A stretch of 41,535 nucleotides of DNA, taken from the NCBI GenBank assembly GCA_019311105.1, contig JAFDDA010000076.1, positions 1-41,535 of the forward strand, in the 5' to 3' direction. Below are positions 632 to 7,738 of the stretch, piece by piece (within the stretch, counting starts at the first letter, position 1; each line of letters starts with the position of its first letter). Made by a program: the position numbers and the translations under genes. The DNA comes from Deltaproteobacteria bacterium (GTDB lineage Bacteria > Myxococcota_A > UBA9160 > JAFDDA01). Below the pieces are notes generated by a model, which worked only from the letters and a program-made list of their open reading frames with translations, made no database searches and was not told the DNA's origin.

Positions 632-2479
632 CTACGGCACCGGAAGTCGGAGCGGCGCGTCGGGCAACACGGTCCTGGGTCTAGGAGCGTGGTACTCGTG
701 GCAGGTCAGGCATCCCGTGCCCGCAGACACCGGGGAATGGCAGTCGATGCACGCGTCCTTGTCGAGGGGTTGGAAGACGCTGGTGAAGACCGTCGGGTCG
801 CGCTCGGCGTAGGCGTCGAGGAAGGCGCTGCTACTCGTGGCGAGTCCGTGGCAGGTCTGGCAGCCGCGTTCGTCGAGAAGTGGGAAGTGCGCCTCGTGAG
901 AGAACTTGACCAGGCCTCGAGCGTCGCTGTCGCGAGGCGCGGCAACCCAGTTCAGAACCGCTCCCGAGCGGGTGTCGTCGATGCTATGGCATTTCGTGCA
1001 GCGGCCCACCGCCTCGGGGTCCGCGAGCGCAGCGAACGTGGCGGCGGCGCCGCGAACCCCCGGGGTCTGCGACGTTCGCGCAGCGAGGTCGAGCCAGGAA
1101 CGTAGGAACTCATCCCTGTGGCCCCGGGGGCGGTAACGCAAGGAGAAGTCGAGATCGTTGCGATACCAGCCGCCCGAAGAGACCCAGTCTTCGACGACCG
1201 ATTCTCCGGGCTCGAACACGGCGTCTTCCATGGGATCGAACTCGTGGGCCACCCCCACCGCCCGTTCGCGCAGCTCCAACGGGAGACGCGGCAGCCATCG
1301 CTCCTGAATCTCTCGCAGCGCGGCCTGGGGCAGGGCTCCCGCGAGCGCCGAGAGTTCGGGCGTCGAGACCTCCCGGCCCAGCACCGTCTCGAGCCTCGCC
1401 CGGAGTGCCTCGTGGCCCCCGGCGGCAATGTCGGCCAGCAATGACTTGACGGCCCAGGCCAGTCGGCCCACCGCAGCCAGCTCGTTCCCGTTCGCCTCGC
1501 TGAGGTCGAGCAGGTCGAGCCCGGCGATCTGATCGAGATCCCGGCCGACCTGTCGATCGCTCGCGAGCAACAGCTCCATGAAGGGCGTGAGCGTCCCTTC
1601 GCTGATGGCGGAGTCGGCGGGCCACTGGCCGATCGCGATCCCGTTCGCCGCGAGGGTCAGGGTGTCGAGCGCCGGAAGGGCCAGGACGGGCACGCCGGTT
1701 TCCCCGACCCGCCCCAGACCTTCGACCTCGGCGCCGTGGCAGGCGCCTCCGCAGCTGTCCTCGAAACCCATGGAGAGCATGTTGCGGCCCGACGCGTCCG
1801 GGGCGTGACAATCGGTGCAGGCGTCTGGCGCCGGTCCAGTGTCGCGTGCGAGGAAGTGCTTCCGAATGTGCGAGCGGTGGTCGAAGACGATTCTCAGCCG
1901 CCGCTCGTAGGGATAGCCATCGAAGTCGGAGTGACCGTGAGCGAAACGATCGATGCGCACCACGTGGCATCCCTGGCAGCGCGAATCGCTGACCGCCTCC
2001 AGATCGGCACCGGAGCCCCGGTGTTCGTGATGGCAGAGCGAGCAGGCGTACTCGCCGGAGGGCGAGCGCGGTGGGTGCAGCAGGGCGCGGGTCGCGGCTC
2101 GCCGAGCACCGGGCTCGAGGACGGCCCGTTCCGCGCTGCGAGTGCGCTCCGCAAGCGCGTGCGGTGGCAAGCCATGGGCTTGAAGACCATCGTTCCCCAT
2201 GGCGTGGCAGGCACGGCACTTCTCACTCTCTTCGAGGCTCAGCGCAGACGACGACAATCCCTGGAGGATTCCCTTGGTGGCCGTCTTCGAGGCGACGTGA
2301 CACGCGCCACAGTCGGCGCCGAAAGCTGCGTGGGGAGAGCTCGACTCGCCGGGGACCAGGAGGTCCGGCCCCAGCGGTGACACGAGGAGGATCGCGACGC
2401 CCGTGAGGGTCAACGCGGCGGATCCGCCGGCAGCCCGGAGGAGGGTCGTTGCGAGTCGGGGCGCCGCGGAAGGGGGCAC
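632..2479 (-). CDS. Decaheme c-type cytochrome, membrane-anchored or secreted
   Basis: This 615-residue protein starts at GTG with GGAG about 7 bases upstream. Residues 14-43 form a hydrophobic signal or anchor, so it acts outside the cytoplasm. Nine CXXCH heme sites lie at C57, C88, C146, C168, C221, C494, C540, C577 and C590. A tenth site, C243-G-G-A-C-H248, has three residues between the cysteines. Six sites are N-terminal and four C-terminal, separated by about 245 heme-free residues of mostly helical character. Additional His residues (for example H151, H153, H181, H183, H201, H204) could be distal ligands. It is the last gene of the five-gene operon, 3 bases after the membrane protein gene. 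Its role is inferred to be electron transfer; no substrate can be named. Confidence 0.88.
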   Translation of the reverse strand: MPPSAAPRLATTLLRAAGGSAALTLTGVAILLVSPLGPDLLVPGESSSPHAAFGADCGACHVASKTATKGILQGLSSSALSLEESEKCRACHAMGNDGLQAHGLPPHALAERTRSAERAVLEPGARRAATRALLHPPRSPSGEYACSLCHHEHRGSGADLEAVSDSRCQGCHVVRIDRFAHGHSDFDGYPYERRLRIVFDHRSHIRKHFLARDTGPAPDACTDCHAPDASGRNMLSMGFEDSCGGACHGAEVEGLGRVGETGVPVLALPALDTLTLAANGIAIGQWPADSAISEGTLTPFMELLLASDRQVGRDLDQIAGLDLLDLSEANGNELAAVGRLAWAVKSLLADIAAGGHEALRARLETVLGREVSTPELSALAGALPQAALREIQERWLPRLPLELRERAVGVAHEFDPMEDAVFEPGESVVEDWVSSGGWYRNDLDFSLRYRPRGHRDEFLRSWLDLAARTSQTPGVRGAAATFAALADPEAVGRCTKCHSIDDTRSGAVLNWVAAPRDSDARGLVKFSHEAHFPLLDERGCQTCHGLATSSSAFLDAYAERDPTVFTSVFQPLDKDACIDCHSPVSAGTGCLTCHEYHAPRPRTVLPDAPLRLPVP

Positions 2480-2482
2480 GCT

Positions 2483-3289
2483 TCAGCTCCCGAGCATCAG
2501 GTGCGCGAACAGCCCGTGGCCATGGGCCAGCAGGCCGTGCATCGCGCCCAGGGTGAGCAAGCTCGCGCCAAGAGAGATGTGGAAGAGCAGCCAGCAGCGC
2601 ACCCAGACACATCCCGCGTGCTGGACGTCGAGCCGGTCCTTGGCAAGGACGAGCTCCGCCAGCTCTTCCAGGGTTCCGCGCTCGTGCGGCGGCGCGGCGG
2701 CGCGCACGGCAGCCAGATCGCGAAGCAGTCGACGCAACGGCCGTCCCGATCCCAGCGCCTGCTGCCACGGAGATCGAGGCGCTTCGAAGTGGCGCAGGAA
2801 TTCGCCCGTGGTCCCGCCCGCCGCCCCGCCCTCGAACAGGGCGGAGGCACGGTGCTGGAGCTCGCGGTGCGCCTCCGCGAGGGGAGCCGGATCCGCGTCG
2901 CCCGGACATTCCAGAGCTCCCGATCGCAGCGCCCGCTGGAGCATGGCTCCCAGCACTGCGCTGGCCAGCAGAAGCAGGAAGAGGCCTGCGAGTACGCAGT
3001 CGAGCCAGCCGTTGGGAAACCGGAACTCCACGTGGAGCGCGAACGAGACCAGGGTGAGGAGACCGAGTCCGAGCGAGGGTGCGACCCAGCGCGTGGGAGG
3101 TGCGGAGCTTCGGATCGCCCACCAACGCCGTGCGCCGGCGCTGGCGAGGAGCACGAGCAGCGTCCAGCCGGTGACGAAGCCGACCGCATAGAGGGATTGG
3201 TGGGAGGCGGCGAAGGCCAGGCTCGCAATCGCGATTCCGCCCAGAAGGCCCGCCGTCCGGGTCACTCGACTCAGCGTCCGACCCGCCAC
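2483..3289 (-). CDS. Integral membrane protein, possible heme-b electron-transfer subunit
   Basis: I place the start at GTG 3289, 7 bases after the stop of the tetraheme cytochrome; a second in-frame GTG lies at 3265. The ATG that overlaps the upstream stop is out of frame. The product is about 268 residues with two N-terminal hydrophobic segments, a further pair after a short linker, a soluble central part (about 110 residues) and a final hydrophobic segment. That last segment carries well-spaced histidines (L-L-F-H-I-S, A-M-H-G, A-H-G-H, A-H-L-M). Histidines in membrane helices beside multiheme cytochromes recall diheme cytochrome b subunits that pass electrons from the quinone pool. That reading is inferred from context, and the protein could equally be a structural anchor. 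Confidence 0.65.
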   Translation of the reverse strand: MAGRTLSRVTRTAGLLGGIAIASLAFAASHQSLYAVGFVTGWTLLVLLASAGARRWWAIRSSAPPTRWVAPSLGLGLLTLVSFALHVEFRFPNGWLDCVLAGLFLLLLASAVLGAMLQRALRSGALECPGDADPAPLAEAHRELQHRASALFEGGAAGGTTGEFLRHFEAPRSPWQQALGSGRPLRRLLRDLAAVRAAAPPHERGTLEELAELVLAKDRLDVQHAGCVWVRCWLLFHISLGASLLTLGAMHGLLAHGHGLFAHLMLGS

Positions 3290-3296
3290 AGGGCGC

Positions 3297-4502
3297 TCAT
3301 CCTCCCAGGTCCGCGGGAGGGCCCGACTCGACCGCGGGCGAGCCCGACTTCCCGGAATCCCGGCGTTCCGCGCTGCGTTGCAGCGCTTCGACACGGGCAT
3401 CGAGTGCGGCCAGTTCCCGGCCGGTGTAGTTCTCGGCGATGGTCCGCGCCGAGCTCTCGACCTCAGCCGCTGCGTCGAGAACCGCCTCGCGCTGGTTCGC
3501 CACCCGCATGGCGCCTTCCGCCGCTCGGAGCGCATCCCTGACTTCGGGCAGCGACGCCAACGCGTCGATCGCGGCCAGGCGTTCCAGTGCCGCCCGCACC
3601 CGCCCCGTCACCCGCTCTGCGTAGGAGCTGCCGGCGTTTGCCCTCGCCAGGACGCGCAGTGCCGATTCCAGCTCCAAGGTCTGGCCGAGCAGGTACATGA
3701 GGCGCTTACGCTCCGCGGAGGATTCCTCGTTCGTTCCGGCCGGGCCACGCCAGTAGTTGTGCCGCATGTCGCCCTGCGACCACGACATCAGCTCGAAATC
3801 ACCACCGACGGGATGCCCCCCGTCCTCGACGATTTCCTCGCTCGGTGTCGTATGGCACGCGAAGCAGCGCGCAGCCAACCCGTAGAGGCGTTCGGCCCGG
3901 TTCATTCCGGCGCGGTCGCACGCGGCCAGGCGTTCGGCCCGATGCTCGGGTGTCTCGGTTTCCGGGGTGGCGTCGGGTTCCCCGTACTTGTCGTGGACCT
4001 CGATCCACTCGCGCGCAGCCCCATGGCACGACTCGCAGGAAACGCCCTGGGTCGCCTTCGGCCGCGGTCCGGCCTGCTGCTCGACCGTGTAGTGGCACGA
4101 GATGCAGGCTTCGGCCGCCTTGATCCTGCGAATTCCGAGGGCCTTGGCGATGCGCTTCGCCTCGGGAGAACGGGGAAGCGACATGGCACCCGTGTAGTGG
4201 TCGGTGTCCTTCCAGGTCTCGACCTCCTTCTCGTGGCACTCCGAGCAGGACCTGGCGCCAACGACCCGGGCCGGATCGGAGAAATAGGGCGCTACCACCG
4301 TCTCGCTGTCGCTGGCCCTGATCGCGCCGGTGCCGACATCGCCGCCGAAGGCCTCGAGCGGACTCGAGCTGGCCCACATGAGGACGACGGCGCCGACAGC
4401 GAACGTCGCAGCCCGAACCCGCCGGTCGGACGAGCTCCGCGTTGGCGCAAGCTCGCTCCCAGCGCCCGTCCCACCTGCGTCGCCCTCCCTGCCGCCGCTC
4501 AT
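3297..4502 (-). CDS. Tetraheme cytochrome c554-like protein
   Basis: The protein has about 401 residues, starting at ATG 4502 (a GTG one codon earlier is possible). Residues 30-47 are a hydrophobic N-terminal segment, so the protein is exported or anchored. Four CXXCH sites lie near residues 86, 133, 156 and 213, with the spacing of the cytochrome c554 family: the first is followed by E-V-E-T-W and H-Y-T-G, and the third is C-E-S-C-H-G. The last 150 residues have no heme site and are rich in Ala, Glu and Arg, consistent with a helical coiled region. It sits between the outer-membrane barrel gene (12-base gap) and the membrane protein gene (7-base gap), which fits a periplasmic electron carrier. 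Confidence 0.87.
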   Translation of the reverse strand: MSGGREGDAGGTGAGSELAPTRSSSDRRVRAATFAVGAVVLMWASSSPLEAFGGDVGTGAIRASDSETVVAPYFSDPARVVGARSCSECHEKEVETWKDTDHYTGAMSLPRSPEAKRIAKALGIRRIKAAEACISCHYTVEQQAGPRPKATQGVSCESCHGAAREWIEVHDKYGEPDATPETETPEHRAERLAACDRAGMNRAERLYGLAARCFACHTTPSEEIVEDGGHPVGGDFELMSWSQGDMRHNYWRGPAGTNEESSAERKRLMYLLGQTLELESALRVLARANAGSSYAERVTGRVRAALERLAAIDALASLPEVRDALRAAEGAMRVANQREAVLDAAAEVESSARTIAENYTGRELAALDARVEALQRSAERRDSGKSGSPAVESGPPADLGG

Positions 4503-4514
4503 CACGTGCTCATC

Positions 4515-5933
4515 TCAGAACTTGATACGCCACTCGCAGCGCACTCCACTCGCAAGGCCCGAGGTGCCATTGCGCCCGCCGATGAAGCCGTCGAGCTGCA
4601 GGATGTGGTGTTGTCCGAAGGCCTGCTGAAAGCGCACGCCCCCGGCGATGGCGGCGGTATCGCTGCCGTCGGTGTCCTGCCGGGCGCCCAGCTCGAGGAT
4701 CAGCTGCCGGCGGATGTTTCCCAGGAACATCTGGTAGCCGACGCTCGCGCCCACGACGTCCTGGGCATCGTTGCTCAGCGGCGGGGCGTAGCGCCCGATC
4801 TCGGGGGAAGCGAACAGGATGCCGACACGGCCCAGCGGACCTCCTGCGCCCCGCCTGCGCGCGGCCGAGACGAAGTCGCCGATGCCCGCGAAGACGTTCA
4901 GATAGGCGATGTTGTCGGTCCGCAGCGGCTTGAAGGAAACCTCGCTCACCAGCAGAGCCCCTCCGTCGGCATCGGGGGTGTCCCTCCCGGTCGGGATCGA
5001 GCCCATGGCGCGGAAAGTGGTATTGAAGTGTCCAATCCGCTGGACGGCGCTGGCGGCGATGAAGAACGCATCGCCACGATCGGGCTTCGAATCGACGAAC
5101 ACCAGATCGACGCTCACGGTGCTCGTCTGGAAATCGGCCTCACTGAAGAGCCCGTACAGGTTGGCGCTGCTGTCGCGGCGGTTGGTCCCGCGATCGATGT
5201 GTCCCCAGCCGTAGAGCCCGGTGATGCGCAGGTTCGCCACGCCCCTGGGTAGCAGGGTGTTTCGCACCACCCCGACCGATTCGATGATGTCGTTGATGAG
5301 CAGACCGTCCTGTACGAGCAGGGGTTGGCGGCCGACCGAGAATCCGTAGTCCAGCTTCATGCGGTCCTCGGGATCGAGGCCCGGGAAGATCTCGCCGAAA
5401 TCCCCCTCGAAGAAGAGCACGTTCAGCCGACCGTTGAACTCGCCCCGGGAGTCCGTATCTCCGGGGCTGAACTCCACACCGGAGTAGTTCTTCTCGTCCT
5501 GGTCGAAGGGGCGGAATCCGAACACGAGCCGCTCGGTCCCGGTGAGCTGCAGGTTGCCGTACAGGTCGAGGCGATTGGCCCACTCGCTCGAGGCCGTGTC
5601 GCCGTCGTCGAACCTCTGGATGGCCGTGCGAAGGGACCCCCAGAGCAGCAGGGACGGCCGCCATACGGCGCCGGTGGGTATCTCGAACTCCCATCCCCCC
5701 ACGGGCCCCACCCCGAGGAACGGGTCGCCTAGTTCGAGGCGGGGACGGGGGCGATCCGGTACGGCATCGACCTGGAGCGGGATGACCTCGTCGCTGATCC
5801 GGCTCGGGTGTGCGTTGCTCCCGGAGGTGCCCCTGCCATCCTCCATGGCGGCGTGCTCGCCCGCCATCTCTCCCGCTCCCGCGGTGGCGGCCAGCGTCAC
5901 GGCGCAGATCAGTGCAGTGATGGACCCCCGCAC
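4515..5933 (-). CDS. Outer-membrane beta-barrel porin-like protein of the cytochrome operon
   Basis: I chose GTG 5933 rather than the longer frame to 5969 because a strong GAGGTGG lies 7 bases upstream and the start then falls 2 bases after the upstream stop. The 472-residue product begins with a clear signal peptide (V-R-G-S-I-T-A-L-I-C-A-V, cleavage near A-G-A-G). After about 60 residues it shows amphipathic beta strands, Gly/Asp turns and a C-terminal W-R-I-K-F typical of barrel proteins. It is embedded between pentaheme and tetraheme cytochrome genes. By analogy with known porin-cytochrome conduits, it would hold or face a cytochrome across the outer membrane. The family is not one I can name from sequence alone. 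Confidence 0.8.
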   Translation of the reverse strand: MRGSITALICAVTLAATAGAGEMAGEHAAMEDGRGTSGSNAHPSRISDEVIPLQVDAVPDRPRPRLELGDPFLGVGPVGGWEFEIPTGAVWRPSLLLWGSLRTAIQRFDDGDTASSEWANRLDLYGNLQLTGTERLVFGFRPFDQDEKNYSGVEFSPGDTDSRGEFNGRLNVLFFEGDFGEIFPGLDPEDRMKLDYGFSVGRQPLLVQDGLLINDIIESVGVVRNTLLPRGVANLRITGLYGWGHIDRGTNRRDSSANLYGLFSEADFQTSTVSVDLVFVDSKPDRGDAFFIAASAVQRIGHFNTTFRAMGSIPTGRDTPDADGGALLVSEVSFKPLRTDNIAYLNVFAGIGDFVSAARRRGAGGPLGRVGILFASPEIGRYAPPLSNDAQDVVGASVGYQMFLGNIRRQLILELGARQDTDGSDTAAIAGGVRFQQAFGQHHILQLDGFIGGRNGTSGLASGVRCEWRIKF

Positions 5934-5935
5934 GA

Positions 5936-7738
5936 TCAATCCACCTCGACCGCAACGTCGCGTTCCCACAGCACCCGATGCCCGGCGACCACGGCATCCG
6001 CGATCCCTCGCGCACTCAGACCGTAGTCGAAGCCCATGCCCTTGATGGCATCGATCAGGTTCGGTGGGACCATCCCGGCGATGAGCTTGATGTTGGCCGA
6101 GTAGGGCGGCGCCCCCGAGAGCTCGGAGGCCTTGACCTCGTACTTCGCCCAGCGATGTCCACCCGGCTCGATCGTCTTGCGGTGGGTTCGCGCACCCGGC
6201 GCGCGACCCGTCAGGATGGCGGGACCGACGCTGGGACGGGCATAGGGCAGTGGATCGACGGAGTAGTTGAACGCGATCACCTGCTCGCGCTCGCTACCGC
6301 GCACGTTGACCGTGAGGAAGCGCGACTGGAGGTTGAAGAGCTGCCGATCGAGGGGAAGCTCACCGTTGTGCACGTAGAGCGAGTGCAGGTCGCGGACGTC
6401 GCCGTTGGGATCCAGATCGCCGGAGACGAACACCACCTCGCCGTCTGCATCGGTGACCGTGACCTGGAGAAACACCATGCGCTCGCCGATGAATCCGGTC
6501 GGGGCGTTGTGCCCGTCGGCCCCATTCTTCACCTCGACCCGGAAGCGCAGACCCTTTTCGTCGGCCCGGTCGACGATCACCTCGCCGAGGCGATAGCCGG
6601 TTCGGAGCAACTGGGTTCCACTCGCGAAGGCCTCCGCGCGCAACGCGAGCTGCAGGTCGAGGATATCGCGGGCATCGTACCGGTCATCGGCCGACGACCA
6701 TCGCGCCGGGAACTCGGTGCCGTCGCCGACACGGTCCTCGAACGCGTCGGTTCCCCAGCCGGCTTCATGGTCGAACTCGAGCCACTCGTCCGTCGTCGCC
6801 AGCTCCGCCGCCTCCGGGTTGTGCGGGAAGATTCCTGGGTGGACGATCGGGAAGTCCGGTCCGACCCACATGTGGGTCGTGCGCTTCCGAACCCGCGTCT
6901 CCTCGTCCCCCATCTTCGCAACGGGTTCGTCCCGGTAGCCCTTGGCTTCGCCGGGCTCCGTGCCCATGTGGCAATCCTGGCAGGTCTCGCCGCGCTTCGC
7001 GGCCGGCGACCCTTTGTACTCGCTGAAGGCCTCTTCGAGTCGGAAACCGGTGACGAAGTTCACGTCGTGGCAGGAGGCACAGAAGCCGGGTCGGCTGATC
7101 GGCTCGAACAAGGTCGCCTCTGCGTGGATCTTGCGACCGCGTTCGTTCGGCGTCGTCACCACGCCGTAGGTGTCGCGTTCCTCGAGGACGCGCTCGACCT
7201 CCTCGTTTCCCGTCGGACCGAAGATCGGCTCGAAGACGTCACCTGCCACGAGGCGTCGCCTTCCGGTCACCTTGCCGTAAGCCTTGTTCACCCGGTGGCA
7301 GACGATGCAGGTCACGCCCTCGACGGAAACGGGCGCACGCTGTGAATTCGGCGCGAAGACGGGCTCTCCCAGCCTCATCCCAACGGGGGTATGGCAGCGG
7401 ATGCAGAAGTCGCCAAAGGTGCCGTTGGTCGCCGCAATGATCGTGCCCTGTAGCGTGTTGAAGATCGGGCTGATCTGCGCGTAGGCGTGCTGCGAAACCG
7501 ACCACTCCCGGTAGTGATCGGGGTGGCAGGTGCGGCAGGTCGTGGCCCGCGGGAATGGATCTGCTTCGAAGACCGCGCGGTGGGACTCGAGCGCGGCGCC
7601 GGCGGGCAGCTCGCCCGACCCATCGTCTGGCGACGAAGCCACGGCTCGGCCCGCTGCAGTCGACACGATCGTCAGCAGGGAGAGAACCAGAAACGACTGC
7701 GTGCCCCAGACCGGCTTCCGCATGGACCGCTTCCGCAT
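5936..7738 (-). CDS. Pentaheme c-type cytochrome, first gene of operon
   Basis: This 600-residue exported protein has a signal peptide at residues 10-35. Five CXXCH sites lie at C68, C112, C144, C220 and C253, all within the first 260 residues. The remaining 340 residues lack heme sites and look beta-rich, with segments such as F-R-V-E-V-K-N-G-A-D-G-H-N-A-P-T-G and R-M-V-F-L-Q-V-T-V-T-D-A-D-G. This resembles heme domain plus beta-sandwich layouts of surface or periplasmic multiheme cytochromes. AAAGGGAG precedes ATG 7738, and an ATG at 7723 is an alternative. It leads the operon, so the promoter should lie in the 437-base gap upstream. It may be a redox enzyme or a terminal reductase; the substrate is unknown. 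Confidence 0.87.
   Translation of the reverse strand: MRKRSMRKPVWGTQSFLVLSLLTIVSTAAGRAVASSPDDGSGELPAGAALESHRAVFEADPFPRATTCRTCHPDHYREWSVSQHAYAQISPIFNTLQGTIIAATNGTFGDFCIRCHTPVGMRLGEPVFAPNSQRAPVSVEGVTCIVCHRVNKAYGKVTGRRRLVAGDVFEPIFGPTGNEEVERVLEERDTYGVVTTPNERGRKIHAEATLFEPISRPGFCASCHDVNFVTGFRLEEAFSEYKGSPAAKRGETCQDCHMGTEPGEAKGYRDEPVAKMGDEETRVRKRTTHMWVGPDFPIVHPGIFPHNPEAAELATTDEWLEFDHEAGWGTDAFEDRVGDGTEFPARWSSADDRYDARDILDLQLALRAEAFASGTQLLRTGYRLGEVIVDRADEKGLRFRVEVKNGADGHNAPTGFIGERMVFLQVTVTDADGEVVFVSGDLDPNGDVRDLHSLYVHNGELPLDRQLFNLQSRFLTVNVRGSEREQVIAFNYSVDPLPYARPSVGPAILTGRAPGARTHRKTIEPGGHRWAKYEVKASELSGAPPYSANIKLIAGMVPPNLIDAIKGMGFDYGLSARGIADAVVAGHRVLWERDVAVEVD

Follow-up and report, generated by a model that had tools for sequence, protein, structure and literature searches.

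The window, that is the whole stretch of DNA that was analysed (41,535 nucleotides), is an entire contig (C114); the draft genome to which it belongs measures 4.76 Mb in 258 contigs and is 89.9% complete. Checking its open reading frames confirmed five tightly packed genes running on the minus strand from 7738 to 632, with the coordinates and strand claimed in a first-pass annotation made from the sequence alone. They are called E, D, C, B and A here (Table 1). The gaps E-D, D-C, C-B and B-A measure 2, 9, 7 and 3 bases, which is consistent with a single transcript. Motif counting gave 5, 4 and 10 c-haem motifs in E, C and A, i.e. 18 CXXCH and one CX3CH, exactly the 19 sites annotated, and no CXXCH in D and B. 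Since shuffled versions of each protein carried a mean of 0–0.03 CXXCH (maximum 2), the observed motifs are far above chance. Among all other ORFs of more than 100 codons in the window, a single one contains CXXCH, with one motif. The operon is real and probably functional. Its GC content (66–71%) is like that of the remaining window, and recent transfer, judged by composition, was rejected on this ground. The contig end lies just past A. At 3–599 of the plus strand, convergent with the operon and interrupted by the contig end, we also observed what may be the C-terminal part of another outer-membrane barrel; it matches DUF1302 weakly (E 0.05).

Table 1. Operon genes, and positions in B discussed as haem ligands
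Feature	Position	Strand	Characteristics
E, pentahaem c-type cytochrome, PHC family	5936..7738	-	5 CXXCH; Pfam Cytochrome_C554, E 1.7e-7
D, predicted outer-membrane beta-barrel, ~18 strands	4515..5933	-	AlphaFold2 mean pLDDT 87.7
C, tetrahaem cytochrome	3297..4505	-	4 CXXCH; Pfam Cytochrome_C554, E 1.3e-15
B, five-helix inner-membrane b-type cytochrome (PCC4 'IMP')	2483..3289	-	homologues in 44 loci
Ser72 of B (counted from GTG 3289), codon TCG	3074..3076	-	His ligand in the other 43 aligned homologues
His86 of B, retained periplasm-side ligand, TM3	3032..3034	-	alignment, predicted topology
His251 of B, expected partner of His86 (codon)	2537..2539	-	alignment, predicted topology
A, decahaem cytochrome	632..2479	-	9 CXXCH + 1 CX3CH (CGGACH); Pfam Cytochrome_C7, E 1.9e-14

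E starts with a signal peptide and ends with a haem-free domain carrying a GHNxPTG motif. Five haems and a C-terminal Ig-like domain homologous to c552/ExtKL characterise the PHC family, which is known from cable bacteria and, as ExtKL, from Geobacter (PMC11976967). The family profile of E matched the penta-haem cytochrome c552 of Thermochromatium tepidum (PDB 5ze8, E 1.1e-15) over both parts, with the haem segments aligned and the PTG motif aligned weakly, and E is placed in this family. Similarity to ExtKL itself is distant: all 21 members of the E family match the ExtKL model (NF040886 equivalog) far under its cut-off, E with 35 bits against 250, and the identification of E as ExtKL was rejected. 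Although c552 is like E in its haem segments and its PTG domain, we know of no pairing of c552 with a barrel, and to our knowledge its function is unsettled.

For D, which likely starts at the GTG at 5933, AlphaFold2 predicted a barrel over the interval where one had been annotated, preceded by a signal peptide and a low-confidence N-terminal segment, so that the annotation stands on this point. The model resembles 18-stranded porins (OprD/Occ family, AlgE and MOMP; VIA Z 24–28, rmsd ~3–5 Å). D belongs to no Pfam family, and sequence searches detected no homology to a named uptake porin.

C consists of a c554-like N-terminal part, matching cytochrome c554 (PDB 1bvb) with E 3.4e-10, and a haem-free C-terminal part, in keeping with its annotation as a tetrahaem c554-like cytochrome. 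A carries a hydrophobic anchor or signal at its N-terminus, and its closest homologues (40% identical) belong to PCC4-like clusters of Nitrospirales. Its ten haem motifs follow the same order as in homologues; the sixth, CX3CH in the window, has two intervening residues (CX2CH) in most of them and four (CX4CH) in L038, a locus from the same order of bacteria.

B likely starts at the GTG at 3289, directly past the stop of the tetrahaem gene. Hydropathy gave five segments, the positive-inside rule placing the N-terminus in the cytoplasm, and the 109-residue loop between TM4 and TM5 is predicted on the same side. The AlphaFold2 model is all-helical (pLDDT 87.9). A fold search with it brought up nothing more specific than generic helical bundles (best Foldseek E 0.11), and cytochrome b561 (Z 10.2) was tied with unrelated chains, so that no fold is assigned to B.

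To place the operon among relatives, named prokaryote genomes were scanned with an alignment of E, yielding at least 80 loci. The matches listed span about ten phyla, almost always with the same barrel alongside. ORFs were clustered from 86 loci (the 80 scan matches listed, five loci from the order of the host, and the window), where D was found in 82, C in 54, A in 47 and B in 44; D adjoins E in nearly every related locus. Two further families recur, X (37 loci), a cyclic-nucleotide-binding (cNMP)/4Fe-4S protein carrying PF13247, and Y (36 loci), a FAD/NAD/2Fe-2S reductase, and some related clusters add an FHA protein. Many loci end at contig ends, and these presences are lower bounds. Profile searches over 90 loci showed E-D-C-B-A-X-Y to be the commonest set (27 loci). 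The window alone among these 90 has E-D-C-B-A with neither X nor Y nearby, and it alone has the inner-membrane pair B and A without them.

The host order contains other arrangements. Y-X-B-A occurs in three genomes with no E, D or C nearby, and E-D in three with the rest not nearby, one of these loci being interrupted by a contig end just past D; inner- and outer-membrane parts are thus separable modules. One genome (G040) holds the full set rearranged and without Y, as C(8 haems)-X-B-A-FHA-E-D (L038, 3–10722). In a quick tree of E with long branches, the window forms a supported four-member group with L050, L075 and L080, and the L035–L037 sequences of its own order group with the Myxococcota-labelled L081 and not with the window, which suggests a separate ancestry of the window E within the order. 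An even smaller version, E-D-C-A with no recognisable B, X or Y, was seen in a Neomarinimicrobiota-labelled record (L087, 162–5931).

The first-pass annotation had taken the gene set and haem distribution as unrecognised. This does not hold: a porin, cytochromes with 4, 5 and 10 haems and a conserved inner-membrane protein (di-haem-b) define PCC4, proposed from genomes in 2017 by He et al. in some Proteobacteria and Planctomycetes (PMC5566968). The PCC4 inner-membrane protein has five helices and carries one WX3HX13H motif in TM3, another in TM5, and SGXXG in TM4; the system also includes other redox proteins, among them a FAD/NAD/2Fe-2S reductase and, for subgroup II, an Fe-S protein with PF13247 (PMC5566968). 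The literature found on this exact gene set consists of He et al. and a 2026 karst study mentioning PCC4, and we found there no experimental test of any PCC4 function.

The window shares with PCC4 the barrel gene in the cluster (AlphaFold2 and fold matches), the three cytochromes with 4, 5 and 10 sites (one site of A being CX3CH), and in B the five predicted helices and homology to the B proteins of PCC4-like loci. In other loci, the domains of X and Y agree with the PCC4 description, and in Hyphomicrobium-type loci both the gene order, which is divergent, and the reductase, whose domains are shuffled, are those of PCC4 subgroup I. Judged on gene content, motifs and taxa (Hyphomicrobium/Rhizobiales loci), and compared with PCC4 by its published description, the window cluster is a variant of this already proposed system, not a new kind. 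The annotated porin-cytochrome electron-transfer operon remains the best reading, backed by homology, as its five families recur together across many phyla.

The window departs from PCC4 at two points. The PF13247 4Fe-4S gene (X) and the FAD/NAD/2Fe-2S gene (Y) are missing from its cluster, an absence to be read with the contig end just past A and the ~90% completeness of the genome, through which either could be missed. In B, the TM5 motif WX3HX13H is intact, whereas TM3 reads WX3SX13H and TM4 SAVLG. Among the 44 aligned B proteins the window alone has Ser for the first His and SA in place of SG (or TG, MG); read by eye, the TM3 and TM5 histidines are also kept in four more B proteins of the same order or class. 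A sequencing error at Ser72 was rejected, TCG being three base changes from any His codon. The predicted topology puts the missing ligand towards the cytoplasm, the expected site of action of X and Y. X-less Nitrospirales and Hyphomicrobium-type clusters keep both WX3HX13H motifs, so that loss of X alone does not coincide with loss of the His. B is divergent (19–27% identity to homologues), which leaves doubt even about the haem whose ligands are kept.

We favour, with a probability of about 0.6, a reduced PCC4-type porin-cytochrome conduit. The operon brings together redox parts for the inner membrane, the periplasm and the outer membrane, and PCC4 is known from candidate Fe/Mn-cycling bacteria (PMC5566968). 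Genes for cytochrome c assembly (PF01578) are present in the genome. Electrons would pass, in one direction or the other, between inner-membrane quinol/quinone and the periplasm-side haem b of B. Next in line would come decahaem A, anchored either in the inner membrane or just outside it, then periplasmic tetrahaem C, and then pentahaem E, which would dock to barrel D of the outer membrane and exchange electrons with a redox partner outside the cell. This path and its coupling to quinone are inferred; the docking of E to D is proposed because their adjacency is nearly constant, and the arrangement of B in the membrane is as hydropathy and the positive-inside rule predict. In fuller PCC4 systems cytoplasmic X and Y presumably feed the cytoplasm-side haem b. 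With both absent from the locus and the ligand on that side gone, exchange should occur at the quinone level only, and the conduit, in this one case, would be cut off from the cytoplasm and be fed or drained from the periplasmic side. A more specific version, in which the cytoplasmic Fe-S/flavin modules and the cytoplasm-side haem b were lost together and a single periplasm-side haem b gates exchange between quinone pool and conduit, is put forward tentatively, at somewhat less than even odds; the link between the two losses would rest on a single case.

Other known systems share parts of this scheme. MtrCAB, PioAB and MtoAB likewise combine a barrel with multihaem cytochromes in a trans-outer-membrane logic. 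However, MtrB has 26 strands and holds MtrA (PMC7198977), against ~18 in D; the barrel neighbour is a decahaem cytochrome of MtrA type in MtrAB and a pentahaem PHC in the window, where no surface MtrC occurs. A conduit of MtrAB type, with a 26–28-strand barrel round an adjoining decahaem cytochrome, was rejected, the barrel being too small and the partner wrong. A cytochrome inserted through D is doubtful given its size, and the operon encodes no separate surface cytochrome. The Geobacter extHIJKLMNOPQS cluster shares a pentahaem PHC near a porin, a tetrahaem and a decahaem cytochrome and inner-membrane b-type components, but it also contains a 12-haem cytochrome, a Rieske protein and a rhodanese, unlike the window. 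ExtI, reported as unique to Geobacteraceae (PMC5877670), was compared with D by its description.

The direction of transfer is a separate matter. There is a slight preference for electron export by a heterotroph, because the draft genome yielded no gene for the RuBisCO large subunit and because the studied relatives of E include metal/metalloid-reduction systems. Uptake, in which Fe(II) or Mn(II) oxidation outside the cell supplies the quinone pool, was the proposal of He et al. for PCC4 and appears rather unlikely here. The occurrence of PCC4 in Fe(II)-oxidising Zetaproteobacteria and in water-filter relatives of Hyphomicrobium speaks for it (PMC5566968). The RuBisCO result speaks mildly against Calvin-cycle lithoautotrophy; as the sole carbon-fixation marker looked for, it leaves room for lithoheterotrophy or another pathway.

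The small barrel also leaves room for a system acting on a soluble substrate, in which D would be an OprD-like uptake channel for a small molecule or oxyanion, whose reduction or oxidation in the periplasm would fall to E together with C and A, no electron crossing the outer membrane. The resemblance of D to substrate-specific 18-strand porins agrees with this, and Geobacter offers a precedent: ExtI, encoded beside pentahaem ExtKL, to which E is distantly related, is linked to selenite and tellurite reduction, while Fe(III) citrate reduction was unaffected (PMC5877670). The sequence searches with D gave the idea no such support, and in many phyla E and D often stand beside inner-membrane electron-entry genes, as a conduit would predict. 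We regard this alternative as unlikely.

Still less probable is an ordinary full PCC4, whose X and Y would lie in the unassembled part of the genome or be replaced by unrelated proteins, the haem on the Ser72 side having another ligand. Incompleteness and fragmentation of the draft, and the position of the contig end on the A side, would allow it, and a FAD/2Fe-2S reductase-like match, of the same general type as Y, was found on another contig (E 4e-22). X and Y, however, usually lie inside the cluster where present, no full-length X was found in this ~90% complete draft (matches cover a generic ferredoxin domain only), and the histidine is kept in 43 of 43 other aligned homologues and in four loci read by eye. 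A decaying cluster, in which B lost its ligand as the system fell out of use, would account for the deviation of B at two motifs that are otherwise conserved, but five open frames, the short gaps, 19 haem motifs and an intact second WX3HX13H make it very improbable.

The scan widens the range of the PCC4 module beyond the Proteobacteria and Planctomycetes of 2017, to records labelled Acidobacteriota, Nitrospirota, Nitrospinota, Verrucomicrobiota, Rhodothermota, Myxococcota, Latescibacterota and others, its parts travelling as E-D alone, as Y-X-B-A alone or all together. It is also present in Tistlia consotensis and Ferruginivarius sediminum, named isolates where it could be tested. As a natural experiment, the window variant bears on the question of which haem in the inner-membrane protein serves the cytoplasmic partners. 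If exchange is indeed confined to quinone, the inner-membrane complex would be modular, and the branch on its cytoplasmic side would be an NAD(P)H-linked arm separable from the rest.

The FHA protein of L038 and a gene for a PP2C-like phosphatase (by eye) adjoining C in L039 (1955–2944) hint at control by phosphorylation or cyclic nucleotides. Elsewhere in the host genome, on contig C64, a cytochrome cd1-type protein that also has a c domain is encoded in a row with a c554-like tetrahaem cytochrome, a 4Fe-4S protein and a membrane protein of NrfD type (L040, 6157–11436), possibly another quinone-linked respiratory cluster. Contig C146 encodes an unusual fusion of 762 residues, an AhpC/TSA peroxiredoxin domain with c554-type multihaem segments and 9 haem motifs (L041, 5138–7423), and contig C62 a multihaem c7-type cytochrome fused to tetratricopeptide repeats (L043, 4–1980).
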